DNA of 43,111 bases, from the NCBI GenBank assembly GCA_017554385.1, contig JAFZIL010000029.1, positions 1 through 43,111 on the forward strand. The letters run 5' to 3'. The position numbers were made by a program, and so were the translations under genes. Below the pieces are notes generated by a model. The model was given only the letters and a program-made list of their open reading frames with translations, was not told where the DNA came from and made no database searches. The DNA comes from Prevotella sp. (GTDB lineage: Bacteria; Bacteroidota; Bacteroidia; Bacteroidales; Bacteroidaceae). Positions 6,981 to 42,972 of this stretch are shown here, piece by piece (position 1 is the stretch's first letter; every line of letters starts with the position of its first letter).

Positions 6981-7294
6981 TTATCATACACCAAGCACTC
7001 ATTTTCAATGGGTTACGGATAAAATAACCGCTATTTATCCGCAATTATCCTACACCAACAATTAATCAAAAAACTACAAAAAAACTGTCTTTGCAGCACA
7101 TTGTTTAGGGAGTCCGAACTGTCCGGACAAAAGTCCGAACCGTTCGGACAAAAGTTCGGACAGTTCGGACGAAGGCAAACAACCTCTGTTAAGCAAACCG
7201 AAGATGTTGGTGTAGGATAAGTAGCGGATAAAATACAGATAATTTATATGTAACTAACTGGTATTCAGTACTTGGTGTAGGATAAGCGGATAAA
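6981..7294. repeat. Iteron-like inverted and direct 14-bp repeats around an octamer array
   Basis: Four copies of TTGGTGTAGGATAA are seen. On the plus strand they are at 7207-7220 and 7272-7285. Inverted copies are at 6981-6994 (one mismatch) and 7045-7058. A second motif, CGGATAAA, is at 7016-7023, 7225-7232 and 7287-7294, with an inverted copy at 7034-7041; 7016-7041 can form an 8-bp stem. The octamer array at 7112-7170 lies between the two orientations. The layout resembles binding sites of a DNA-binding protein, but no neighbouring regulator or Rep gene is present. Confidence 0.75.
7112..7170. repeat. GTYCGRAC octamer array, 21-bp period
   Basis: Six octamers of pattern GTYCGRAC start at 7112, 7121, 7133, 7142, 7154 and 7163. 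Spacing alternates 9, 12, 9, 12, 9 bp: pairs separated by one base, then an AAAA spacer. The composite unit is therefore 21 bp, two helical turns. Each octamer is close to palindromic, as expected for dimer binding sites. Confidence 0.8.
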
Positions 7295-8160: not shown

Positions 8161-8214
8161 GGGTTTTTAGGGGTTAATGGGTTTCAGAACTTATTGGGCC
8201 CATGAGGGGGAATT
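8161..8214. repeat. Degenerate 9-bp repeat between ndk and the GH95 gene
   Basis: Units GGGTTTTTA, GGGGTTAAT, GGGTTTCAG, AACTTATTG, GGCCCATGA fill the gap and run into the stop codon of the GH95 gene. They resemble the clearer GGACTTATR/GGGCTAATR nonamers at 28189, 30414 and 31776, but are much worn. Confidence 0.45.
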
Positions 8215-10717
8215 ACTGCACGGCAGAGACCTGGATGGTGGTGCCGGGCTTCATGGTGACGTCATATTCATAGACCTTCGGCACGGGTGCTGGCTCGAAG
8301 CTGGTAAGCTCGGGCGAACGCAGCGGCTGGCGCACGTTGGCAGGCTGCATGAACTGGTTGGGGCAGGCGCCCTTGGCTGGTTTCAGTCCTTTGCCCTTAA
8401 GGGGTGCGGATGAGCGCAGGCGCAGTTTGCCACCGATGGTGGCGTGGATGGTGGCATGTTGCAGTTGGCTGCCCGACCAGCTGATGTCGGCAACGAATCC
8501 TCCGCGTGCCCTGAGTCCGCTTACCTCACCCTCGGTCCACGTCTTGGGCAGGGCGGGCAGCAGGTGGAGTGCACCGTCGTGGCTCTGCACAAGCATCTCG
8601 GCGATGCCTGCAGCACAGCCGAAGTTACCGTCGATCTGGAAGGGCGGGTGGGCATCGAAGAGGTTGGGATAGGTACGTCCTTCGGGATAGAACCTTGTGA
8701 AGCCGTCGCTGGGCAGCAGATGGAGCATGTTGCGGATGATGGTGAAGGCATGGTCGCCGTCGAGCATGCGTGCCCAGAAGTTGATTTTCCATCCTAAGCT
8801 CCATCCTGTGGCCATATCACCGCGCTGGCGCAGGGTATTGGCAGCTGCAGCAAAGAGGTCGGGATGGGTGAAGGGCGATATCTGGTTTGAGGGATAGAGT
8901 CCGTAGAGGTGGGATACGTGGCGGTGCTCGTCCTTCGGGTCGTCGCCGTCGATGAGCCACTCCTGTAGCTGTCCGTGACGACCTATCTGCATCGGAGGCA
9001 GCTGTGCGAGGGCTTTCTCGAGCCTTTGCTGCAACGGGCGGTCCTTGATGCCCAGCACGCGCATGGCTCCCAGCGTCTGGGTGAGCACGTCGAAGACAAT
9101 CTGGTTGTCCATCGTCGAGCCTGCGGTGACGGTGGTGGTCTTACCTACGGGGCCATGTTCGGGCGACACGGTTGGTACGGTCATAAGCCATCCTGCAGCT
9201 TGCTTCACCTCACCGTCGGCAGGATAGGGCTGCATGTAGTCGAGCAGGAAGACGGCAGCTCCCTTCATCACGTCGTAGTACTGGCGCAACAGCTGTTTGT
9301 CGCCTGTGAAGAGGTAGTGCTGCCAGATATGTGTGGTAAGCCAGGCGCCGCCAGTGGGGAACATGCCCCAGGTGGTGCCGTCGATGGGTCCGCTGACGCG
9401 CCACAGGTCAGTGTTGTGGTGAGCCACCCAACCGTTGCATCCGTACATGGTGCGTGCGGTCTCGACACCGGTCTTGCTGAGGTCGCGGATCATCTCGAAG
9501 AGCGGCAGCTGGGTCTCGGCAAGGTTACCCACGAGTGCGGGCCAGTAGTTCATCTCGGTGTTGATGTTGATGGTATACTTCGAATCCCACGGGGCATTCA
9601 TCTTGTCGTTCCATACGCCTTGCAGGTTGGCAGGCTGTCCACCGGGCTGCGACGAGCTGATGAGCAGGTAGCGGCCATACTGGAACATCAGTGCCACGAG
9701 GTCGAGGTCGAGATTTGAGGTTTGAGATTTGAGGTTTGAGGTTTGAGAGTTGCCGAAGGCCTGCAGACGACGGTCGGTGGGCAGGTCGGACTCTTTTGTG
9801 CGCGGCAGTCTCAGGCACACGCGGTCGAACTGCTTCTGATAACTCTCCTTGTGGCGGCTGAGTAGCTGCTCGTAGTCGTAGTTGAAGGCGGCTGTGAGCG
9901 CCTGCCGGTTCTTCTCGGTGGGGTTTCCAGAGATGTCGTTGTAGCTCACGTAGTTGGTGGCGGCTACGATATAGAGCGTAGCCTTGGTGGCACCACGCAC
10001 CACGATGCCCTCGGTGCCCTGCTGCTGTGTAGTGCCGTCGCTCTCGACGTGTATGCGGCATTCGGCTTTCAGCATGCCCTTGACGCCCTCCTGATCCACA
10101 TTGCTGATGACGGCCACGAGGTCGCCGCCCTTGATGGAACGCTCGGTAGGCAGCTGACATTCGTGCGAGAGGGCGAAGTTGAGCGCACCCTTCTGGTCGC
10201 TCTCAATGTGCATCACCACCAGCCCGTCGGCCATCGAGGCAAAGGTGGTGCGCCTGATGGTGGCATTGCCCACGCGATAGCTCACATTGGCTGTGGCCGT
10301 CTCAAGGTCGAGGTCGCGATAATACTGTTGCGGGTTCTGCTGGTTCCAGAACTTCACAAAAAGGCTTCCCAACGTGAGGAAACGCATGCCGAAGGGCTGC
10401 TTGAAGAAGTATTTGTCGATGAGCGCGTGGGCCTCACCCTCTTTTCCGGCATAGATAAGGTTGCGCACCTCTTCGAGATGGGCCAGCGACTCGGTACTGT
10501 TATTGTTGTAGGGCGATCCGCTCCAGAAGGTCTCTTCGTTCAACTGGATCTCCTCGGTGTCGGCACCACCGTAGACCATCGCACCCATGTGCGAGTTGCC
10601 GATGGGCAGTGCTTCGAGCCAATGGGTAGCGGCCTTGTCGTACCAGAGCTTCTGTTGGGCCGTTGCGCTGACGATAGCCAGCGTCAGTAAGGTGAAAAAG
10701 GTCAGTAATCGTTTCAT
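8213..10717 (-). CDS. Secreted GH95 alpha-L-fucosidase
   Basis: Inverting GH95 glycosidase that removes alpha-1,2-linked L-fucose (some members act on L-galactose) from host or plant glycans. There are 834 residues with a signal peptide (1-20, VSATAQ). The N-terminal beta domain begins WLEALPIGNSHMGAMVYGG. The (alpha/alpha)6 barrel carries NINTEMNYWP near 384-393 (family Asn pair), the acid E586 in LQEWLIDGDD and D696 in IDGNFG. A heptad repeat (9714-9748) encodes QTSNLKSQTSNL-like residues 324-335 in a linker before the barrel. Unlike GH27, GH10 and GH43 here it has no GIYIKN-type tail. It starts 13 bp after the stop of the aminotransferase gene, so they share a transcript. Confidence 0.93.
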   Translation of the reverse strand: MKRLLTFFTLLTLAIVSATAQQKLWYDKAATHWLEALPIGNSHMGAMVYGGADTEEIQLNEETFWSGSPYNNNSTESLAHLEEVRNLIYAGKEGEAHALIDKYFFKQPFGMRFLTLGSLFVKFWNQQNPQQYYRDLDLETATANVSYRVGNATIRRTTFASMADGLVVMHIESDQKGALNFALSHECQLPTERSIKGGDLVAVISNVDQEGVKGMLKAECRIHVESDGTTQQQGTEGIVVRGATKATLYIVAATNYVSYNDISGNPTEKNRQALTAAFNYDYEQLLSRHKESYQKQFDRVCLRLPRTKESDLPTDRRLQAFGNSQTSNLKSQTSNLDLDLVALMFQYGRYLLISSSQPGGQPANLQGVWNDKMNAPWDSKYTININTEMNYWPALVGNLAETQLPLFEMIRDLSKTGVETARTMYGCNGWVAHHNTDLWRVSGPIDGTTWGMFPTGGAWLTTHIWQHYLFTGDKQLLRQYYDVMKGAAVFLLDYMQPYPADGEVKQAAGWLMTVPTVSPEHGPVGKTTTVTAGSTMDNQIVFDVLTQTLGAMRVLGIKDRPLQQRLEKALAQLPPMQIGRHGQLQEWLIDGDDPKDEHRHVSHLYGLYPSNQISPFTHPDLFAAAANTLRQRGDMATGWSLGWKINFWARMLDGDHAFTIIRNMLHLLPSDGFTRFYPEGRTYPNLFDAHPPFQIDGNFGCAAGIAEMLVQSHDGALHLLPALPKTWTEGEVSGLRARGGFVADISWSGSQLQHATIHATIGGKLRLRSSAPLKGKGLKPAKGACPNQFMQPANVRQPLRSPELTSFEPAPVPKVYEYDVTMKPGTTIQVSAVQ
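9714..9748. repeat. In-frame heptad repeat in the GH95 gene
   Basis: Five 7-bp units on the plus strand: TTTGAGG, TTTGAGA, TTTGAGG, TTTGAGG, TTTGAGA. The gene reads the opposite strand (CCTCAAA), which is free of stops in all three frames. The plus strand gives TGA within three units. Confidence 0.85.
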
Positions 10718-14142: not shown

Positions 14143-16989
14143 ATGAAAAAGGTTCTATTATCACTCATCTTCTGTATGACAACCATCGCCATGCAGGCCC
14201 AGTTGTTGACGATTGGCAGCTGGAACGCATCAAGCCGGAACATACCGGTCAAGAGTAACTATAAATACAGTTTCAGTGAGCAGATATATACTGCCTCGGA
14301 AATCGGGAGTGCTGGAACTATGAAAAGTCTGGACTTCTATAACATTGGTAGTGATCCTCAGACACGCACGCTGGATGTCTACGTGGCGTTCACAGACAAG
14401 AATGAATTCATAGACATGACGGCAGACAACAAAGTGTTCAGCGGAGAGGTCACATTTGCCAAGGACGAATGGACTACCATTGCCTTTGACAAGCCGTTGG
14501 AATATGACGGCACGCAGAATATGATCATTGCCGTCAACGACCTGACGGGTCGCGATGAGAACGATATTAATTTCAGGGCTTATTATTCAGGCCAAGGTTA
14601 TCAGACACTTTATATGGCCAGAGACGAGTCAGGTGCCTATAACCCATCTGACATCAAGCAGTACTATTACCAAACCGACTACTATAAAAACGTCATCAGA
14701 CTCGAGTTTATTCAAAACATTTCAGTGATGGACGAGGAAAACAACCTGGTCAACGAATTGGACTTTGGAAAATCTGACGATGGGGCAAGCCGCACTTTGG
14801 TATTGAAAAACAACACAGAGGCCCCCGTTGATGTCCAGGTGGACCTCAGCTGTTTCCCCGACAACTCTTTCTCCTCGGACAAACAACAGATAACCATTGC
14901 GGCAGGAGCTTCAGAGAGCATCACGTTGACCATGCCGGCTTTGCCATACGGTAGCAGGGATGGAGAGCTGACACTTTCATTTCTTGGCACAACGAAGAAG
15001 ATAGCCCTGAAGGGTACTATCGTGCCACCCTCTGTGCCACTCGATGCGGAGCATTTCCCTGATGACAAATTCCGCCAACACGTTTCCTATAAGTATGACA
15101 CCGACAAGGATGGCATACTTAGTGGAGACGAGATACTCGCAGTAGTGAGTTTTTCTTTCTACCAAGGCTACAACTTCACGGTTAATGACCTGACAGGTAT
15201 TGAATATTTCGTGGAGATGCAGAAGTTTGAGAATGGAGCCAGCCAATGTACCTTCACCTTCGACGAATTGGATATGTCGAAATTCGTCAGACTCACCAGT
15301 TTTGAATGCGAATTAAACAACCTGAAGGTTCTCAACCTGAGGAATAACAAACTCCTGAGAGAGTTGAACTGCAGCAGGAACCAGATTACAGACCTTGACC
15401 TGAGCAACAATACTGAGCTTACAAGAATCGTTTGTAATGACAACCAACTGTCAACCATCGACTTGACGGCTTGCACCAAGCTGGAAGAACTAAACATTTC
15501 AAATAATCAGCTTAAGAACTTAGACCTCAAGGCAGACAAACTTGAATCTCTTGCAATCAATGGAAACAATATTCGCGGCAAAGCGATGGACGACCTGATA
15601 GCCTCGTTACCTGTTTTTGAGGGGAGATATGTGGGTGAGTACAATGAGTACTGGCAAGAATTTGTTTATCTTGTTTACAAGCCATTCAGGTATTCTTCAG
15701 ACAACACCCTTAACAATGTGGTGACCGAATCGCAACATCAAGCAGCCTTGGCTAAGGGGTGGAAGACATGTTATTGGACTTATGACGGGTTTGTTGAGCA
15801 TTTCTCGCCCGACGGAGTGGTGATTTCCGATGAGAACTTCCCGGACGAGAACCTGCAGAAAGCATTGTTCAATAAAGAAGAAGAAGCAAAAGACGGAGTG
15901 TTCACCGAGGAGGAAATAGCAGGAATAGAGGAGTTAAACCTTTACGGATGCGATATTAGCCGGCTGAAAGGCATAGAACATTTCACGGCTATCAACCATT
16001 TGTATTGCTACAACAACCACTTGCAGGGCGAGGCCGTTGACGAGCTGATAGAATGTCTGCCAATACGTGAAGAAAAGGACGGGGAGATGGACTTTATGTA
16101 CTTCGGCAATGACGACAATGTTATAACCAAGGAACAAGCTGATGCTGCAAAAGAGAAGGGATGGAAGGTGTTTTGCTATTATGAATACGGCAGGCAGGAG
16201 TTTATGGGACGACCCCTTCCCCTTGTCTTTTACCACTTAGAAGACGGGGAAGAGGATTATATGTTGATGGGCGAATACAATCAATCGACCATCATCGACG
16301 ACCTTAAACAAAAGGGATGGATCATTGAAGGTGACATTTCATACGACGACGATACAAAGACCATCACGCTGAATGGAATCAAGGCAGCTAACATGTATAT
16401 TGAAGTCAACCATGAATTAGTAGATCCCAATAACGTCAGCAACACTCCTTATACCATCAAAGTGAATGACGCCAACGAACTGGTTGGAATGGTTGTGGCA
16501 ACGAGCGAATTGTCTCTTGTAGGCAGTGGCACGCTCAGCAACTCTGTTCTTTATGCTTATGTCTCTCTCATGACAATCGACGGACCGGCCATCGAAGTAA
16601 ACTCTCCCGAGTCGTATGGCCTCTATATTGGAGAGCGGGAAAGTTCTACGTTAGACATCAAGAGCGGCAGCCTGCGGCTCACCGCTACGCAGCATCCGCT
16701 GTATATGAGCGGCAATGATACTCCGACGCTTAATCTGGCCGAGGGTATGGTCGTGTTGGCTCCTGCCGATGCCGTATGGACAACCAATTCATATTCGGGA
16801 TACTTCGCTGATGCCGATGGCAATCCGCTCGGCACCGCTACGCTCGAAATAGGTGTCGTCGACGGTATAAGCCACGCAGCTATCCAGCCTTCCTTCAACC
16901 AAGGCTACTACACGCTTGACGGTCGCCGCATAATAGAGCCCACACGTAAGGGCATCTATATTCAGAAAGGTAAAAAGGTAATAAAGTGA
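14143..16989 (+). CDS. Secreted leucine-rich-repeat surface protein with EF-hand-like segment
   Basis: 948 residues. A signal peptide (1-19, IAMQAQ) is followed by a beta-rich domain to about 190, an Ig-like segment to about 300, and a calcium-loop-like DTDKDGILSGDE near 319. Bacterial LRRs follow (LRELNCSRNQITDLDLSNN type) at about 380-480. A module ending in DDLIASLP...AALAKGWKTCYW is echoed later by DELIECLP...AAKEKGWKVFCYY. A second EF-like DGVFTEEEIAG lies near 587, then a beta-helix-like part. The tail YYTLDGRRIIEPTRKGIYIQ...KKVIK resembles those of GH27, GH10 and GH43 here and may direct secretion. Likely adhesion or substrate binding at the cell surface; no enzyme motif was seen. Its TGA overlaps the GTG start of the next gene. 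Confidence 0.75.
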   Translation: MKKVLLSLIFCMTTIAMQAQLLTIGSWNASSRNIPVKSNYKYSFSEQIYTASEIGSAGTMKSLDFYNIGSDPQTRTLDVYVAFTDKNEFIDMTADNKVFSGEVTFAKDEWTTIAFDKPLEYDGTQNMIIAVNDLTGRDENDINFRAYYSGQGYQTLYMARDESGAYNPSDIKQYYYQTDYYKNVIRLEFIQNISVMDEENNLVNELDFGKSDDGASRTLVLKNNTEAPVDVQVDLSCFPDNSFSSDKQQITIAAGASESITLTMPALPYGSRDGELTLSFLGTTKKIALKGTIVPPSVPLDAEHFPDDKFRQHVSYKYDTDKDGILSGDEILAVVSFSFYQGYNFTVNDLTGIEYFVEMQKFENGASQCTFTFDELDMSKFVRLTSFECELNNLKVLNLRNNKLLRELNCSRNQITDLDLSNNTELTRIVCNDNQLSTIDLTACTKLEELNISNNQLKNLDLKADKLESLAINGNNIRGKAMDDLIASLPVFEGRYVGEYNEYWQEFVYLVYKPFRYSSDNTLNNVVTESQHQAALAKGWKTCYWTYDGFVEHFSPDGVVISDENFPDENLQKALFNKEEEAKDGVFTEEEIAGIEELNLYGCDISRLKGIEHFTAINHLYCYNNHLQGEAVDELIECLPIREEKDGEMDFMYFGNDDNVITKEQADAAKEKGWKVFCYYEYGRQEFMGRPLPLVFYHLEDGEEDYMLMGEYNQSTIIDDLKQKGWIIEGDISYDDDTKTITLNGIKAANMYIEVNHELVDPNNVSNTPYTIKVNDANELVGMVVATSELSLVGSGTLSNSVLYAYVSLMTIDGPAIEVNSPESYGLYIGERESSTLDIKSGSLRLTATQHPLYMSGNDTPTLNLAEGMVVLAPADAVWTTNSYSGYFADADGNPLGTATLEIGVVDGISHAAIQPSFNQGYYTLDGRRIIEPTRKGIYIQKGKKVIK

Positions 16990-17759
16990 AAAGCGAAAAG
17001 GGAAAGATATCGGTAGTCATCAACACCTACAATGCCTTGCAGCATCTGAAGGAGGTCATCGAAGCGGTGAAGGGCTTCGACGAGGTGTTGGTGTGTGATA
17101 TGGAAAGTACCGACGGTACACCCGACATCGCCCGTAGCGAGGGTTGCCGCGTGGTGACCTTTCCTCGCGGTGAGCATGCCATCGTTGAGCCGGCACGCGA
17201 GTTTGCCATCCACGAAGCCAGCTGCGAGTGGGTGCTCGTGGTCGATGCCGACGAGGTGGTGACACCCCAGCTGCATGACTATCTCTATCGGCGCATCAGT
17301 GAAGATGACTGTCCCGACGGGCTGTTCATACCCCGTCATAACCGCTTCATGGGCCGCTACACGCGCGCTTTCACTGCCGACCACCAGCTGCGCTTCTTCC
17401 GTCAGGAGCGAACCCACTGGCCCAACGTAATCCATGCTGCTCCGCAGGTGGAGGGTCGCGTGGAGAAGATAGCGAAGAACAAGGAGGGCATAGAACTGGT
17501 ACACCTGGCCGACGAGACCATCAGCGAGCTGCTGGAGAAGTGCGACCGCTATACCGACTACGACATGAAGAAGAAAGAAGGGAAGCACTATGGGGCGGCT
17601 GCCCTGTTGCTGCGTCCGCTTTGGAAGTTCCTGTCGTTCTATTTCCTTCAAGGTCACTATCGCGACGGACTGCGCGGCGTGCTGTTTGCAGGCATGAAGG
17701 CCGTCTATCAGTTTGCACTCGTGGCAAAGGTCATTGAGAAAGGGATAAGTGAAAAGTGA
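16986..17759 (+). CDS. Family 2 glycosyltransferase, WaaE/KdtX-like
   Basis: 257 residues; would add a sugar from a nucleotide donor to a lipid A/core or surface glycan on the cytoplasmic face. The GT-A core shows ISVVINTYNALQHL at the start, DMESTDGT, and the metal-binding VLVVDADEVVTP (about 80-91). The C-terminal helical part (FYFLQGHYRDGLRGVLFAGM) is seen in KdtX-like transferases. The start must be the GTG at 16986, since the core strand begins at residue 8; that GTG comes from a heptad repeat (GTGAAAA, GCGAAAA, GGGAAAG) and overlaps the TGA of the LRR gene. Its own stop lies in another heptad run shared with the next gene. Confidence 0.85.
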   Translation: MKSEKGKISVVINTYNALQHLKEVIEAVKGFDEVLVCDMESTDGTPDIARSEGCRVVTFPRGEHAIVEPAREFAIHEASCEWVLVVDADEVVTPQLHDYLYRRISEDDCPDGLFIPRHNRFMGRYTRAFTADHQLRFFRQERTHWPNVIHAAPQVEGRVEKIAKNKEGIELVHLADETISELLEKCDRYTDYDMKKKEGKHYGAAALLLRPLWKFLSFYFLQGHYRDGLRGVLFAGMKAVYQFALVAKVIEKGISEK

Positions 17760-17785
17760 AAAGTGATAAGTGAAAAGAGATAAAT
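17744..17785 (+). repeat. Heptad repeat forming the stop/start junction of two glycosyltransferase genes
   Basis: Six 7-bp units: GATAAGT, GAAAAGT, GAAAAGT, GATAAGT, GAAAAGA, GATAAAT, followed by TTGCTACCGCT. The TGA of the upstream gene (17757-17759) and the GTG start of the downstream gene (17770-17772) are both made of repeat units. The trailing TTGCTACCGCT also follows the heptads inside ispG. Confidence 0.85.
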
Positions 17786-18744
17786 TTGCTACCGCTTTGG
17801 TATCGGTCATCATCCCCAACTACCGGCATGCGCCCTATCTGCGGGAGCGCATTGAAAGCGTGTTGGCGCAGGACTACGATGCCTTTGAGGTTATTATCCT
17901 CGACGACTGTTCGCCTGACAACAGCCGCGAGATTATTGAGAGCTATCGCGAACATCCGCGCGTCAGCCATATTGTGCTGAATGAAGAGAACTCGGGCAGC
18001 ACCTTTGCACAGTGGAACAAGGGTTTTGCACTTGCTCGGGGTGAATATATCTGGATAGCCGAGAGCGACGACGTGGCCGATGCAACGCTGTTGAGCACGC
18101 TGGTCAAGGGGCTGCAGCAACATCCGGAGGCGAGCGTGGCCTATTGTCATTCACGCCTTATTGATGCCGACGGACGCGTACTCTCGGAGCAGAACACACG
18201 GAACAGGGCACCCAAGGGGAAGGTCAGCGTGCATAGGAGCGAGCGCTTTCTGCGTCATCTGCTCCTGTTCAACTATATCTACAACGCCAGCATGGCGGTG
18301 TTCAGGCGTGTGGCTCTGAAGCAGGTCGACGACGGCTACCGCCGCTACCGCTACTGCGGTGACTGGCATTTCTGGGCAAGCATCTGTGCTTCGGGCGATG
18401 TGATTGAGGTGCACGACATGCTCAACAGTTTCCGTCAGCATAAAGCAAAGGTGACCGTTGACTCGCGCAGCGACGTAGCAAGGCGATGGGAGGACGAGTG
18501 TGCGGTCATCAGCTACATACGGAGTCTCTGCAGGCTGTCATCAATTGGCGACCGTTGTTTTCGCGGACGGCTACGTAAGCGCTTGCTCAGGTCTGGCATG
18601 AATGATGAGGAGATTGTTTCGTTGAGACAGTCGTTCCCGCAGTTGTGTAGTGGCACGGCGATTGACAGCATGGCCTACGAGATAGGGAAAACCCTGTTTG
18701 GCTTCCTGCGCCATCAGCAGGACATCAAGTTCCTAAAGGGTTAA
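17770..18744 (+). CDS. Family 2 glycosyltransferase
   Basis: 324 residues, cytoplasmic GT-A enzyme for surface glycan assembly. VSVIIPNYRHAPYLRERIESVLAQ opens the nucleotide-binding fold. LDDCSPDNSREII and IWIAESDDVADA (DXD-type) follow, then YCGDWHFWASI near 196, typical of the acceptor side. The start is a GTG inside the heptad repeat, 10 bp after the previous stop; no ATG lies before the first strand. With the preceding gene it forms a translationally linked pair. It converges with the GT4 gene, whose stop is 13 bp away. Donor and acceptor are unknown. Confidence 0.85.
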   Translation: MKRDKFATALVSVIIPNYRHAPYLRERIESVLAQDYDAFEVIILDDCSPDNSREIIESYREHPRVSHIVLNEENSGSTFAQWNKGFALARGEYIWIAESDDVADATLLSTLVKGLQQHPEASVAYCHSRLIDADGRVLSEQNTRNRAPKGKVSVHRSERFLRHLLLFNYIYNASMAVFRRVALKQVDDGYRRYRYCGDWHFWASICASGDVIEVHDMLNSFRQHKAKVTVDSRSDVARRWEDECAVISYIRSLCRLSSIGDRCFRGRLRKRLLRSGMNDEEIVSLRQSFPQLCSGTAIDSMAYEIGKTLFGFLRHQQDIKFLKG

Positions 18745-18757
18745 AGGTTAAGGGATT

Positions 18758-19969
18758 TCAGAGCAGGGCATCGAAGAGCCTGCCGGTTTCCTCAAAGGTG
18801 AAATAGCGGCAACGAAGGGTCATGCCTTCCCGGATACGTTGTTGAAGGGCAGTATCGGTAAGCAGTCTATGCATGGCATCGGCCAATGCGGTGGCATCGC
18901 CTACGGGTGTAAGCAATCCTGCCTTACCGCCTCCGAGAATCTCGCGAGGGCCTGTTGGACAGTCGGTAGCCACGATGAGGCAGTTGAGCATCAGGGCTTC
19001 AATAAGTACCGTGGGAAGGCCCTCGAACTTGGCACTGTGTACCAACAGACGGCAGTGCTGCATCCATCCATACGGGTTCGACTGGAAGCCCAGAAACAGC
19101 ACATCGTCGGCTATGCCGAGCTGTAGGGCCAGCTGTTTCAATTGTTCTTCGGAGTGGCCTTTGCCTATGATGACCAGCCTTTCAGCGTGCTGATAGCGGG
19201 TGCGCAGCTGCTGAAAGGCGTGGAGCAAGGTAGTCAGGTCTTTCTGGCTTTCCTCTAATCGCTCAACAGCAAGGATGTAACCGGAAGTGAAGAGTGAAGA
19301 GTGAAGAGTGAAGAATTGGCTGCCGCTATCGGTAACTCCCTCGGCAGCCCGTTGCAGCAGCTGTTCCCGGTCCTTGGCGTTGTAGATGACGCAGAGCTTA
19401 TTGGCAAGCTGCGGGAAGAGCCGGAGGCCTTCCTCTTGCATAGCCTCTGAGATGGTCACCACCTTGTCGTAGCAAGCCAGCTGGCGACCTATGCGCAGCA
19501 TACGACGACGGTTCTGCTGCATGGCCTGTTCGAAGCTGAAGTGGAACCAAGCTATCTTACGCACATGGGTAATGCTGTTTAGGAACGAGTAGAAGCAACA
19601 GTCGAAGTCGATGACCACATCATGGATAGCCGTCAGACGGTGCAAACCCCGGCTGATGAGAACGCGTCTGATGGGGGAGAGCACAAATTCATCGTAGATC
19701 TTCACGGGTAGTGGCAGGTGTCGCTTGATCTTTTCCTGGCGCCAGCGGGTGAGCCATCCGGCCTTTACCAGCCACTCTACCTTGACATGATGGGGCAGAC
19801 GGTTGGCAAACACTTCTAACGGCCCCATACTGATGCCTATGGCAAGCGTCAGCTCGTAGTCATCGCGACGGGCCAGATGCTGTAGGTATTCAACCAATAC
19901 GGTGTCAATGCCACCGTCGAGAAAACGGCTCATCAGAAAGAGTATTCGCTTGCGTGATGTTGATTCCAT
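18758..19969 (-). CDS. Family 4 glycosyltransferase carrying an in-frame heptad element
   Basis: 403 residues, GT-B fold retaining transferase. N-terminal LFLMSRFLDGGIDTVLVEYL binds the acceptor side; the donor domain has GYILAVERLEESQKDL, IIGKGHSEEQL, and the E-x7-E motif in HSAKFEGLPTVLIEAL. Residues about 215-229 (SGSQFFTLHSSLFTS) are encoded by a 44-bp repeat (19284-19327) placed exactly between the two Rossmann domains, and are almost identical to a stretch in IspG, an unrelated protein. The function is probably retained because the insert is in the interdomain linker. The gene has its own promoter, divergent from the LpxL-like gene. Role: surface polysaccharide synthesis, donor unknown. 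Confidence 0.87.
   Translation of the reverse strand: MESTSRKRILFLMSRFLDGGIDTVLVEYLQHLARRDDYELTLAIGISMGPLEVFANRLPHHVKVEWLVKAGWLTRWRQEKIKRHLPLPVKIYDEFVLSPIRRVLISRGLHRLTAIHDVVIDFDCCFYSFLNSITHVRKIAWFHFSFEQAMQQNRRRMLRIGRQLACYDKVVTISEAMQEEGLRLFPQLANKLCVIYNAKDREQLLQRAAEGVTDSGSQFFTLHSSLFTSGYILAVERLEESQKDLTTLLHAFQQLRTRYQHAERLVIIGKGHSEEQLKQLALQLGIADDVLFLGFQSNPYGWMQHCRLLVHSAKFEGLPTVLIEALMLNCLIVATDCPTGPREILGGGKAGLLTPVGDATALADAMHRLLTDTALQQRIREGMTLRCRYFTFEETGRLFDALL
19284..19327. repeat. 44-bp heptad element, copy 1
   Basis: GAAGTGA, three AGAGTGA units, AGAATTG, then GCTGCCGCT on the plus strand. It differs at 3 of 44 positions from the copy at 26591-26634. It is read on the complementary, stop-free strand by the GT4 gene. 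Confidence 0.9.
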
Positions 19970-26247: not shown

Positions 26248-26274
26248 GCCGACGGTGGGTCAATGACCGTCGGC
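26248..26274. terminator. Hairpin between convergent eptA and ispG
   Basis: GCCGACGGT (26248-26256) pairs with ACCGTCGGC (26266-26274). It overlaps the last codons of ispG. T runs are weak on both sides, so the call as a two-way terminator is tentative. Confidence 0.45.
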
Positions 26275-27654
26275 TTCGATGAGCTGGAGTAGCCGGTCGA
26301 CAGCCTCCTCCTCGGGAATATTCTTTGCCACACACTCCTTCTGACGATAGAGCGAAATCTTGCCACGGCCTGCGCCTACATAACCATAGTCGGCATCGGC
26401 CATCTCGCCAGGTCCGTTCACAATACAGCCCATGATACCAATCTTCAGACCTACCAGATGGCTGGTAGCTGCCTTGATGCGGCGGATGGTGTCTTGCAGG
26501 TTATAGAGGGTGCGCCCACAACCGGGACAGGAGATATACTCGGTCTTTGTGAACTTGATACGGGCTGCCTGAAGGATGGCATCGGAGAGGGAAGTGAAGA
26601 GTGAAGAGTGAAGAGTGAAAAATTTGCTACCGCTGTCAGGAACAATAACCAGCTTCGTGGCCTTACGGTCGATAAGGAGGGCTCCGACAGCCATAGCGGC
26701 CTTGAGTTGAAGGGTCTCCCAGTCGGGTGCATCGAGTTGCAGGGTGATGGTGTCGTCTTTGATGCCCGCCTCGGCCTCGGCACGCAGGCGTGTGCATTCG
26801 GGAATGAGGTCAACGAGCTTTCTTGCCACGGGAATCTCGCACTCCGGCTCCTCGGAGAGCGACACACGGATGGTGTCGCCAATGCCCTCGGTAAGCAGTG
26901 CACCGATGCCTACAGCACTCTTGATGCGACCGTCCTCGCCCTCGCCGGCCTCTGTCACTCCAAGATGCAAGGGGTAGTGCATGTCTTCCTTATCCATGGC
27001 CTGAACCAACAGGCGTACGGAAGTTACCATGACCACCGTGTTGCTCGCCTTGATCGAAATGACCACATCATTGAACTGCTCACGCTTGAAAATGCGCAGG
27101 AACTCCATGCAGCTCTCGACGATACCTGCAGGCGTGTCGCCATAGCGCGACATGATACGGTCGCTGAGTGAGCCGTGGTTAACGCCTATGCGAACGGCGG
27201 TATGGTGCTCACGGCAAATGTTAATAAAAGGTACGAGGCGCTCATCAATCTTACGCAACTCCTCCTGGTATTCCTCATCGGTGTATTCCAAGTGTTTGAA
27301 TGTGCGACCGGGATCGACATAGTTGCCAGGGTTGATACGTACCTTCTCGCAGTATTGGGCAGCCACATCGGCTACACGGGCATTGAAGTGGACATCGGCT
27401 ACGAGTGGCTGCATGTAGCCGTCCTGCTTCAGCCGTGCCGAGATGTTCTTCATATTCTCAGCCTCTCGGGTGCCCTGAGTGGTCAATCGCACCAGTTCGC
27501 CACCAGCGTCGATGATGCGCTTGGCTTGCGCTACGCAGCCCTCGGTATCGTTGGTGTCGGTGGTCGTCATCGACTGGATGCGAATGGGATTGTCGCCACC
27601 GATTGCTGTGTTGCCCACATGGGCAACAGTGCTCATTCTTCTCTGATAACTCAT
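26260..27654 (-). CDS. ispG: IspG (GcpE), 4-hydroxy-3-methylbut-2-enyl diphosphate synthase, with shortened extra domain
   Basis: Iron-sulfur enzyme of the MEP isoprenoid pathway. 464 residues. The TIM barrel opens with VGNTAIGGDNPIRIQSMTTTDT; the Fe-S domain carries CPGCGR and GIMGCIVNGPGE, giving the three cluster cysteines and the Glu ligand. About 115 residues separate DTIRVSL from CPGCGR, against fewer than 30 in E. coli and roughly 300 in typical Bacteroidetes/plant enzymes: a reduced A* domain. A 44-bp repeat (26591-26634) encodes SGSKFFTLHSSLFTS, residues about 341-355, inside this reduced region. The start follows the purE stop directly (TAGATG), so the two are co-translated. Confidence 0.92.
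   Translation of the reverse strand: MSYQRRMSTVAHVGNTAIGGDNPIRIQSMTTTDTNDTEGCVAQAKRIIDAGGELVRLTTQGTREAENMKNISARLKQDGYMQPLVADVHFNARVADVAAQYCEKVRINPGNYVDPGRTFKHLEYTDEEYQEELRKIDERLVPFINICREHHTAVRIGVNHGSLSDRIMSRYGDTPAGIVESCMEFLRIFKREQFNDVVISIKASNTVVMVTSVRLLVQAMDKEDMHYPLHLGVTEAGEGEDGRIKSAVGIGALLTEGIGDTIRVSLSEEPECEIPVARKLVDLIPECTRLRAEAEAGIKDDTITLQLDAPDWETLQLKAAMAVGALLIDRKATKLVIVPDSGSKFFTLHSSLFTSLSDAILQAARIKFTKTEYISCPGCGRTLYNLQDTIRRIKAATSHLVGLKIGIMGCIVNGPGEMADADYGYVGAGRGKISLYRQKECVAKNIPEEEAVDRLLQLIEADGH
26591..26634. repeat. 44-bp heptad element, copy 2
   Basis: GAAGTGA, three AGAGTGA units, AAAATTT, then GCTACCGCT on the plus strand; 41 of 44 bases match copy 1 at 19284. Read in frame on the opposite strand by ispG. 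Confidence 0.9.
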
Positions 27655-28874: not shown

Positions 28875-30410
28875 TTAGTTCTTTCTTAGTCGCGCTACGG
28901 GGAATCCTAATTGTTCGCGATATTTGGCTACGGTGCGGCGCGCTATGGGGTAACCGCGCTGACGCAGCATGTCGCTCAAGGTATCGTCAGTGAGCGGTTT
29001 GCATTTGTCCTCGGCTTCTATCATGTCACGTAGTGTAGCTTTAATCTCACGGATAGAGAGCTGTTCACCGCTTTCGGTCTTCAGTCCGTCGCTAAAGAAA
29101 TACTTCAAGGGGAACGTGCCCCATCGTGTCTGGACGTATTTCGAGTTGGATACACGTGAGATAGTCGACAGGTTCAGTCCTGTTCGTTCGGCTATGTCCT
29201 TTAAAATCATGGGGCGTAGCAGTGCTTCGTCTCCTTCCTCAAAAAACCGATGCTGCAGTTGTATGATAGCTTTCATCGTGGTTGTCAAGGTACGGCGTCG
29301 GGTGCGTACAGCCTCGATGAAGCCTTGTGCGGCATCTACTTTCTGCTTGGTATAGAGCAGTGCCTCTTTCATCTGTCGCGACAAGCCGTCGCGGTTCTGC
29401 TGATACTCCTTGAGCAGGTCGCTAAACGACTGTGACACCTGCAGCTGGGGTACGTCGCCCATATTCAACTGGAACGAAACAGAGCCGTCTTCGTGTGTGT
29501 CAACAATAAAATCGGGAGTAATCTGGTGCATCGACCGTCCTACCACTTCGCCCATTGAGGCTCCTGGCTTGGGATTCAGCCTTCGCAGTTCACGCTGTAA
29601 CATCTCCACTTGCATATCGTCAAGCGACATCGACTGCTTGATTTTGTCCCAGTGCTTCTTTGTGAACTCCTCGAAATGGTCACTGATGACTTGGCGCATG
29701 AGTGCAGGAGTGGAGGAGTGAAGGGGTGCAGGAGTGGAGGTTGAATCTTTCCTGTCAATCTGTAGCAACAGGCACTCCTGGAGTGTGCGTGCACCGATAC
29801 CTGCGGGATCCAGTTCCTGCAGTTTGTGCAGCACTTCCTCAATCTCTTGTGTCGTAGCGTCGATACCATGGTAGATAGCCAGTTCATCGCTGATGGACGA
29901 GAGCGAAGTGCGCAGCAGTCCGTCATCGTCGAGCGAACGGATCAGATACTCCATGATGTACCGGTGGCGTTCGCTAAGTTCCAACTCGCCAACCTGACTC
30001 AACACCTGATCATAGAAAGACTCTGTACCGCCGTAGACCATTTCCTCACGCTCTTCGGTGGTAGACCGGCCTCCCTGATAGACGGGCAGCTCCTCGTCAT
30101 CTCGCCCTATACTTTCGAGTGCGGCGTCCAAGGCATCGGCCCGTTCTTCTCGTTCGCGCTGGCTTTCAAAATCATCAGAGGCACCGCCCTCGGTCAACTC
30201 ATCATGATCCTGGCTATCAGAGAACTCAGGGAATGTAGGTTCGTCGGCCGAGACTTCCAGTGCGGGGTTGTCGTTCATCTCGGTGTTGATGCGTTCTGCC
30301 AGTTGCGCGATGGGCAGCTCTACGAGTTGCGACACCAACAACTGCTGTTGCGAAATGCTTTGCTGCAGACGCTGTTCCTGTTTTTGTTCCTGTATCTGTG
30401 TCTGGGCCAT
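28875..30410 (-). CDS. rpoN: RNA polymerase sigma-54 factor
   Basis: Alternative sigma factor recognising -24/-12 promoters and dependent on AAA+ activators. 511 residues. Region I (about 1-50) is Gln/Leu-rich; an acidic region II follows (about 55-115); core-binding and DNA-binding parts come next; the RpoN box ARRTVAKYREQ lies near the C-terminus. An 8-bp tandem repeat (29701-29740) encodes a Ser/Thr/Pro linker, PAPLHSSTPAL, at about 224-237 inside the core-binding region. A 9-bp repeat precedes the start. No sigma-54 activator gene is in the window. Confidence 0.95.
   Translation of the reverse strand: MAQTQIQEQKQEQRLQQSISQQQLLVSQLVELPIAQLAERINTEMNDNPALEVSADEPTFPEFSDSQDHDELTEGGASDDFESQREREERADALDAALESIGRDDEELPVYQGGRSTTEEREEMVYGGTESFYDQVLSQVGELELSERHRYIMEYLIRSLDDDGLLRTSLSSISDELAIYHGIDATTQEIEEVLHKLQELDPAGIGARTLQECLLLQIDRKDSTSTPAPLHSSTPALMRQVISDHFEEFTKKHWDKIKQSMSLDDMQVEMLQRELRRLNPKPGASMGEVVGRSMHQITPDFIVDTHEDGSVSFQLNMGDVPQLQVSQSFSDLLKEYQQNRDGLSRQMKEALLYTKQKVDAAQGFIEAVRTRRRTLTTTMKAIIQLQHRFFEEGDEALLRPMILKDIAERTGLNLSTISRVSNSKYVQTRWGTFPLKYFFSDGLKTESGEQLSIREIKATLRDMIEAEDKCKPLTDDTLSDMLRQRGYPIARRTVAKYREQLGFPVARLRKN
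29701..29740. repeat. In-frame octad repeat in rpoN
   Basis: Five 8-bp units on the plus strand: AGTGCAGG, AGTGGAGG, AGTGAAGG, GGTGCAGG, AGTGGAGG. rpoN reads the complementary strand, which has no stops. Confidence 0.85.
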
Positions 30411-42830: not shown

Positions 42831-42950
42831 CAAACAGTATCTTTGATGTTTCCAAACAGTATCTTTGATGTTTCCAAACAGTATCTTTGATGATGCCAAA
42901 CAGTATCTTTGATGATGCCAAACAGTATCTTTGATGATGCCAAACAGTAT
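42831..42950. repeat. 22-bp tandem repeat array beside an IS66 end
   Basis: Copies start at 42831, 42853, 42875, 42897, 42919 and 42941 (last one partial), exact 22-bp period. Unit: CAAACAGTATCTTTGATG plus NTNC. Each full unit contains TATCTTTG, a perfect -7 promoter box, but without a -33 box at the right spacing. The minus strand has no stops in any frame, so open frames there are artefacts. Confidence 0.92.
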
Positions 42951-42972
42951 GTTTTGTAGATGGAGGCAGGGG

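Follow-up and report, generated by a model that had tools for sequence, protein, structure and literature searches.

The window, by which we mean the whole stretch of 43,111 nucleotides analysed here, holds three copies of a short element on the plus strand. These copies and the open reading frames (ORFs) around them are as follows.

26260..27654, minus strand: ispG (GcpE), 464 aa; a single Pfam GcpE match spans the insertion
26592..26633, plus strand: element copy in ispG, four heptads followed by AAATTTGCTACCGC; in-frame reading on the minus strand SGSKFFTLHSSLFTS
18758..19969, minus strand: gene for a GT4-type glycosyltransferase, 403 aa; the element lies between its Glyco_transf_4 and Glycos_transf_1 Pfam matches
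19285..19326, plus strand: element copy of 42 bp in the GT4 gene, in the same orientation and frame as in ispG; reads SGSQFFTLHSSLFTS
17754..17795, plus strand: third element copy, located where two glycosyltransferase ORFs meet
17739..17753, plus strand: extra degenerate heptads 5′ of the third copy
16986..17759, plus strand: ORF that we take to encode a GT2-like glycosyltransferase; the heptad array supplies its last codons
17770..18744, plus strand: second ORF, presumably also for a GT2-like glycosyltransferase; its listed (predicted) GTG start lies within the element

A reading of the sequence alone had drawn attention to two 44-bp tracts, at 26591-26634 and 19284-19327, and these do agree, with 41 of 44 bases identical. 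As controls, the 44-mer matched at best 29/44 in the reversed window and 34/44 in 1.09 Mb of reversed sequence from the own genome, and a 20-base heptad pattern with up to three mismatches gave six (overlapping) matches in the window, the maximum over 100 shuffles being zero. The ORF translations also bear out the statement that both tracts are read from the minus strand in a common frame, giving the two peptides listed above. The related third tract that had been placed at 17744-17796 is real and agrees with the 44-mer at 37/44 positions in register. It lies outside genes: a TGA inside one of its heptads terminates the upstream ORF, and the tract contains the listed GTG start of the downstream ORF (VKRDKFATAL...).

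The 44-bp extent holds as a match between the two tracts, whereas the unit itself, as delimited by an alignment of 50 genomic copies, is 42 bp long. The heptads after which the element had been named are likewise real but form one part of it, the unit consisting of four AAGTGAA-type heptads followed by a fixed, non-repetitive 14-mer (AAATTTG CTACCGC). Since the 50 copies were picked by the core alone, the constancy of its columns follows from the search pattern, apart from the variable letters of that pattern. Information in the heptad part extends from −28 to −1 and falls off beyond these positions, with the outer heptads varying most; 3′ of the core only a weak TNT is seen, extending to +16, and beyond the unit the letters are near background. 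TA adjoins many of the outer ends, without a clear target duplication. Four heptads and a 14-mer make 42 bp, which is six times seven and also fourteen codons, and because 42 is divisible by both 3 and 7, the solo unit preserves the reading frame by itself.

The whole-genome search proposed in the sequence-only reading found many copies, far above the reversed control. In the own genome (3,055,982 bases in 98 contigs, 81.3% complete), a 15-base core with up to two mismatches was found at 68 places, compared with six for the reversed pattern, and the exact 14-mer at 16 places, compared with none for its reversal. A weight matrix was then applied to the window and 18 further contigs (19 contigs, 1,088,714 bases), copies from which had also served to train it. 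It returned 71 arms of at least 22 bits, a density that is biased upward because the contigs had been picked for good core matches; the reversed control gave two windows, the better at 38.3 bits. Most of the arms (61/71) score above this best control and 10/71 do no better, the arms at or below 38.3 bits including one arm in three of the eight in-ORF pairs and both arms in the PGM gene described below. Exactly four heptads, counted outward from the core, are present in 44/71 arms, a count in which the matrix favours "at least four" and not "no more than four". The element is both bounded and dispersed.

One might suppose that such tracts arise by microsatellite slippage or chance convergence, with a heptad tract growing in situ in each gene, and unrelated heptad arrays are indeed common in the genome. 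Slippage, however, leaves the recurrence of a non-repetitive 14-mer beside the heptads unexplained, with its 16 exact copies against none reversed, and the 42-bp unit recurs 71 times. This explanation is refuted for the core, and we regard it overall as very improbable.

Units occur alone or as inward pairs, the 58 units comprising 45 solo arms and 13 such pairs. Among neighbouring arms (at most 220 bp apart), 13 combinations were inward, one was direct and none was outward; tandem direct arms were noted at C41, L267 and L269. The pairs span 94 to 173 bp, and nine of the 13 fall between 94 and 109 bp. One possible hypothesis is that the inverted pair, a palindrome of roughly 94-109 bp, is the true mobile unit, as in REPINs or Rickettsia palindromic elements (RPEs), and that solo arms are one-armed remnants, which is how REPIN singlets are described in the portions of PMC3116915 used here. 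The number and size of the inward pairs agree with this hypothesis, as does the folding, as single-stranded DNA, of one of two pairs into a long hairpin (z = −11.7), the other giving only a weak one (z = −1.8). Loci L267 and L270, both from G065, have their arms and a 13-nt loop in common. A likeness of the two arms within pairs that goes beyond the family consensus was considered and set aside as weak (0.739 vs 0.701 shuffled, with 82 of 2000 shuffles as high). On the other hand, a degenerate partner scoring above the 95th percentile of random positions was found for 3/45 solo arms, which is about the chance level, and solo arms lie closer to the consensus than pair arms do (median of 61 bits for 45 arms vs 55 bits for 26 arms, p = 0.02), the reverse of what is seen in REPINs, with the pairs inside genes also being under coding constraint. 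These two observations argue against solo arms being decayed pairs. Furthermore, 17 of the 19 loci fetched from G031 are free of pairs. We, therefore, think it unlikely that the pair is the unit that moves.

Other repeats were seen in the same DNA and are recorded here as separate observations. At window positions 9710-9752, an array of GAGGTTT/GAGATTT heptads lies in frame in a minus-strand ORF (8213-10717) that is presumably GH95-like (NSQTSNLKSQTSNLDLD), and represents another in-gene heptad family. CAATTGA-type heptads at 1325-1362 lie near the N-terminus, in the likely signal-peptide region, of a plus-strand ORF (1284-2648) that we assume to be TolC-like (ILCQLSIVSHQLSIARAQ). At 2022-2041 and about 2042-2071, GGAGGGT heptads adjoin CTTGCCTTGCAAGCGACCAGAGGTCGAGC, a stretch that is found also beside GAGGTTT heptads (C57) and CAATTGA-type heptads (C69), so that here too a fixed core is combined with heptads that can be exchanged. 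At six places in the own genome (C45:19202, C45:26120, C45:31188, C62:132929, C62:135147 and C62:136979), ATGATTACCAAG, which is likely to be a gene start, follows immediately on AATTGAG-type heptads. An eight-base array, GCAGGAGT, at 29696-29740 is in frame in a minus-strand ORF (28875-30410), which we take to be rpoN-like, and reads STPAPLHSSTPALM. A 22-bp sequence is cleanly repeated in tandem (5.6 copies, 97% matches) at 42831-42954 near the contig end, and 22 is the best-scoring period at 33/385 tandem-repeat loci of the sample. Finally, a 21-bp palindromic repeat (GTCCGAAC...GTTCGGAC) at 7111-7170 recurs at four other places in the sampled contigs, and AAGTCCGAAAG-type 21-mers lie beside a Y1 transposase match of G031 (L351, 2139-2202); this repeat is possibly a REP with its own transposase.

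Units of the 42-bp element sit both between genes and in frame inside open frames. A spanning open frame surrounds 29 of the 58 units (eight pairs and 21 solo arms), as counted from stop-to-stop frames and not from gene calls; if only units with every arm above the best control are counted, the figure is 21/48. In a Pfam scan of 28 of the 29 spanning frames (the frame at C62:119714 being left out), 14 units lay within a single domain match, 11 of them with all arms above the best control. The domains concerned are GATase_7, RNB, FGGY_C, DsbD_TM, GcpE, PolyA_pol, AAA_12, Semialdhyde_dh, TMEM260-like, DBI_PRT, DUF6371, bMG10 (C81:85778) and, in one gene, PGM_PMM_I and PGM_PMM_III, where both arms are weak (24 and 29 bits). 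Going beyond the Pfam labels, we take GATase_7 to represent an AsnB-like protein, RNB to be RNase R, GcpE to be IspG, Semialdhyde_dh to be ArgC and DBI_PRT to be CobT. Another six of the 28 units lie at the edge of, between or outside Pfam matches (GT4, YceD, UvrA, MatE, a Reg_prop/HTH protein, and C81:85507, before bMG10), and the remaining eight frames are without a Pfam match and may not be genes.

All eight in-ORF pairs have a loop of length 1 mod 3 and encode a SEKFATA-like peptide followed by an AxANSSLF-like one, whereas the loops of the five pairs outside ORFs are 0, 0, 1, 1 and 2 mod 3. Two in-ORF pairs of other genomes (L264, L271) also have loops of 1 mod 3, a rule that is partly built in because one frame of the reversed core contains a stop. 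For 15 of the 24 solo units outside ORFs, a candidate start codon (ATG, GTG or TTG) of an ORF of at least 100 aa falls at −32 to +44 of the core end; nine of the 15 are ATG, and the figure is a raw count without a random control.

Orthologues indicate what some of these sites look like when the element is missing. The element is present in none of the 18 aligned ArgC orthologues, of which 12 are shorter by 25-28 residues and one by 23, while five (L327-L330 and L344) carry different additions, that of L327 being a row of CTCACCC-type heptads. Likewise, it is present in none of 24 aligned RNase R orthologues, 19 of which are shorter by 25-27 residues and five of which (L302-L305 and L312) have other additions. 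By these alignments, orthologues hold nothing like the element at the ArgC and RNase R insertion sites. Three close homologues of the GT4 glycosyltransferase were found; two of them, 53 and 44% identical, entered the alignment that had been suggested as a check, and both are without the element.

The picture in IspG is more varied. The sequence-only reading had pointed out that an ancestral peptide would be carried by distant orthologues alike. In the alignment that it called for, 16 of the 29 loci given cover the site and SGSKFFTLHSSLF is found in none of them, so that the pattern expected of an ancestral peptide is not seen. One of the loci, L135 (G001), has a different heptad-armed insert at the same site, reading NSSLFTLHSSL, and L124 (G022) has AATTCTC heptads in IspG. 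Among 42 further IspG loci (of 80 found), 23 have a segment of 32 residues where the window has 38. Locus L181 (RUG14573, 90% identical) has the same insert as the window, L182 has the GGCGGTAGCAA core in common with it but different heptads after that core, L189 carries a GGAAAGA-heptad palindrome, and L186, L193, L194 and L216 have other repeats or long additions. This variety of inserts marks the loop shortly before CPGCGR as a site where inserts land repeatedly. The window's copy, being shared with the nearest relative by IspG, L181, is old and not brand new. A separate observation is that, within the GTDB genus, IspG occurs in two lengths: about 460 aa, the short form that the window has, and about 615-670 aa, in long open frames where the alignment breaks near residue 285.

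With 71 genomic arms, in-frame copies, and ArgC and RNase R orthologues that lack it, the original proposal of a dispersed element able to enter genes stands, and it is very probable in our estimation that this is a copied element that does so.

The exact 14-mer was found in 100 of 398 genomes of the genus, the own genome included, with a maximum of 21 places (G031). The reversed 14-mer occurs once each in six of the 398, so some of the single core matches are due to chance; G008, for example, has a single core without heptads. Of 60 relatives sampled, ten have the exact core, all of the same genus; none of the 24 that belong to other genera has it, the relatives being searched for the exact 14-mer only. 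In our sample, therefore, the exact core is confined to one GTDB genus, within which its distribution is patchy. The nearest IspG loci come mostly from bins labelled rumen or ruminant Prevotella or Prevotellaceae. The genome of the window is itself fragmented (98 contigs, 81.3% complete), and the inserts might in principle be artefacts of metagenome-bin assembly. The same insert is, however, present at the same IspG site in a separate record (L181), heptad-bearing units occur in several other genomes, and the exact core (the core alone being read) lies at base 2,990,781 of contig 1 of G141. We find an assembly artefact scarcely credible.

The question is then which enzyme, if any, moves the element. 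Each of the absences reported here is weakened by the incompleteness of the genomes. The Y1 (IS200/RAYT) transposase domain, PF01797, was undetected in G320, G270, G236 and G249, which have 20, 18, 16 and 7 exact cores and are 92-97% complete. It was detected in 8/12 core-carrying and 6/12 core-free genomes, and the counts in the relatives sample were 7/10 and 14/26. Of 18 Y1-bearing stretches fetched (of 20), only L355 has the exact core, beside a Y1 match that is weak and stop-containing, and L370 has a weak core-like match. The presence of Y1 does not track the core in the own genome, the 60 relatives or the 24 chosen genomes, and this transposase was rejected as the mover. Reverse transcriptase (PF00078), of which the own genome has matches, was undetected in 7/14 core-carrying genomes (G031, G320, G270, G236, G065, G384 and G249) and in 4/12 core-free genomes as well; it appears not to be required, within the limits of incomplete genomes. 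The same holds for the IS630-type domain DDE_3 (PF13358), which was found in 0/14 core-carrying genomes tested. In L366 and L365, the distances between cores are 2.7 and 3.7 kb; a scan of these two stretches that covered cores and ORFs of at least 150 aa revealed no autonomous copy between distant arms. There was no Rfam match at the gathering score in the window and five loci, a plasmid search gave no match, and a phage search gave three weak matches (E 0.02 to 0.7) that were not counted.

These results bear on the possibility that a DDE transposase, for example of the IS630/Tc1 type, moves the element as a MITE. IS630/Tc1 transposases duplicate TA. The TA adjoining many outer ends and the inverted arrangement of the paired arms (13/58 units) would agree with such a MITE. 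However, DDE_3, the sole DDE family searched, was in none of the 14 core carriers, and the outermost heptads are the most variable, the opposite of terminal inverted repeats. We consider a DDE transposase quite unlikely.

Alternatively, errors of replication or repair, such as template switching at short heptad homologies, could copy the units without any dedicated enzyme. Landing pads for this process would abound, given that the period is divisible by 7 at 186/385 tandem-repeat loci of the sample, a count made without a shuffled control and including 21-base coding repeats. The same core is found beside other heptads within the genus (C39:8193 of the own genome, L105, L110, L262, L263 and L182), there are the tandem direct arms mentioned above, and Y1, RVT_1 and DDE_3 were each undetected in some or all of the core carriers tested. 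Template switching does not readily account for the fixed outer end at four heptads in 44/71 arms, which looks like that of a mobile element, or for a patchy, genus-limited distribution with bursts, which resembles that of a mobile-element family. We regard it as possible but somewhat unlikely, and give about even odds to a dedicated enzyme that moves the element in trans, as against its being copied through repair or template switching.

Taken together, the reading that we favour, with a probability of about 0.8, is that of a very small non-autonomous mobile element of rumen-type Prevotella that survives in frame in permissive loops. We infer its mobility rather than see it, no filled and empty pair of sites from one species being among the loci compared. 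The element would be copied to new sites with the help of an enzyme acting in trans, which would most likely recognise the invariant inner core; a recognising factor would suit the invariant core, and a defined unit the fixed outer end. In permissive loops, insertions that preserve the frame would survive and are predicted to be translated, as about 14 residues for a solo arm or 32-37 for a pair. Later on, the block of heptads may slip or be exchanged as a whole, with the core left in place. More tentatively, and with somewhat less than an even chance of being right, one could envision in Prevotella a class of mobile DNA that follows a seven-base grammar. Its unit, 42 bp long, asymmetric and frame-neutral, would have no need for enzymes of the Y1, reverse transcriptase or IS630 type, could pair head to head into a coding palindrome, would have its heptads swapped while the core is kept, and would land repeatedly in permissive loops of the essential enzymes IspG, ArgC and RNase R, feeding new peptide into these proteins.

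Several known systems resemble the element in part. The Nostoc small dispersed repeats (SDRs) are likewise very small dispersed units, often embedded in heptameric repeats and with no known carrier, but differ from the 42-bp unit in their length of 21-27 nt. They are named in PMC3116915. The parts of that paper used here describe REPINs and RAYTs as short units, solo or in hairpin-capable inverted pairs, the REPs being extragenic. Short units that occur solo or as inverted pairs are thus found in both systems, to judge from those parts. The present element nevertheless fails the tests of a REPIN/RAYT system, which are a Y1 transposase and better conserved pairs: Y1 was undetected in four core carriers, and solo arms are better conserved than pair arms. 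BrickBuilt of Porphyromonas gingivalis is described, in the sections of PMC4596501 drawn on, as an always intergenic MITE whose tandem repeat has a 23-base period and is accompanied by leader units, tail units and small inverted ends. By that description, it is similar in being a dispersed Bacteroidales element that contains a tandem repeat.

Heptads themselves have a precedent in the TAACTGA direct repeats of Beggiatoaceae, Cyanobacteria and five Bacteroidetes, which, in the excerpts of PMC4679880 used here, often lie just 5′ of start codons, are found in some ORFs, are patchy in distribution and have no mechanism assigned. Seven-base tandem units with a patchy distribution across species are common to both, as far as those excerpts describe the repeats. 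They are, however, plain heptad arrays there, whereas the present unit couples its four heptads to an invariant 14-mer and has copies within conserved housekeeping domains. A literature search, judged mostly by titles and abstract openings, yielded no description that we recognised as this element, and the words Prevotella, Bacteroid and heptamer are absent from the MITE review PMC10969869.

In the portions of that review used here, Rickettsia is the foremost known case of small repeats invading genes in frame; its RPEs, of about 150 bp and several families, lie in frame in unrelated genes with a conserved peptide each. Both systems are small repeats in frame inside unrelated genes, here at 29/58 units. 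The whole-element palindrome of RPEs is not the rule here, since 45/58 units are solo and 42 of these 45 are without a partner above the 95th percentile of random positions; the prevailing form is a 42-bp non-palindromic heptad arm, most pairs measure 94-109 bp, and Prevotella is the host. The element explains why predicted proteins of Prevotella contain strange peptides without homology (SLFTLHSSLFT, KSEKFATA), and it makes it testable now what copies such elements, why they are built on seven bases and how often the inserts become working protein. It is close to RPEs in behaviour and, by description, is set apart from them in unit, plan and host, so that Prevotella offers a case of in-frame invasion with a smaller unit and a seven-base plan in a rumen-type host.
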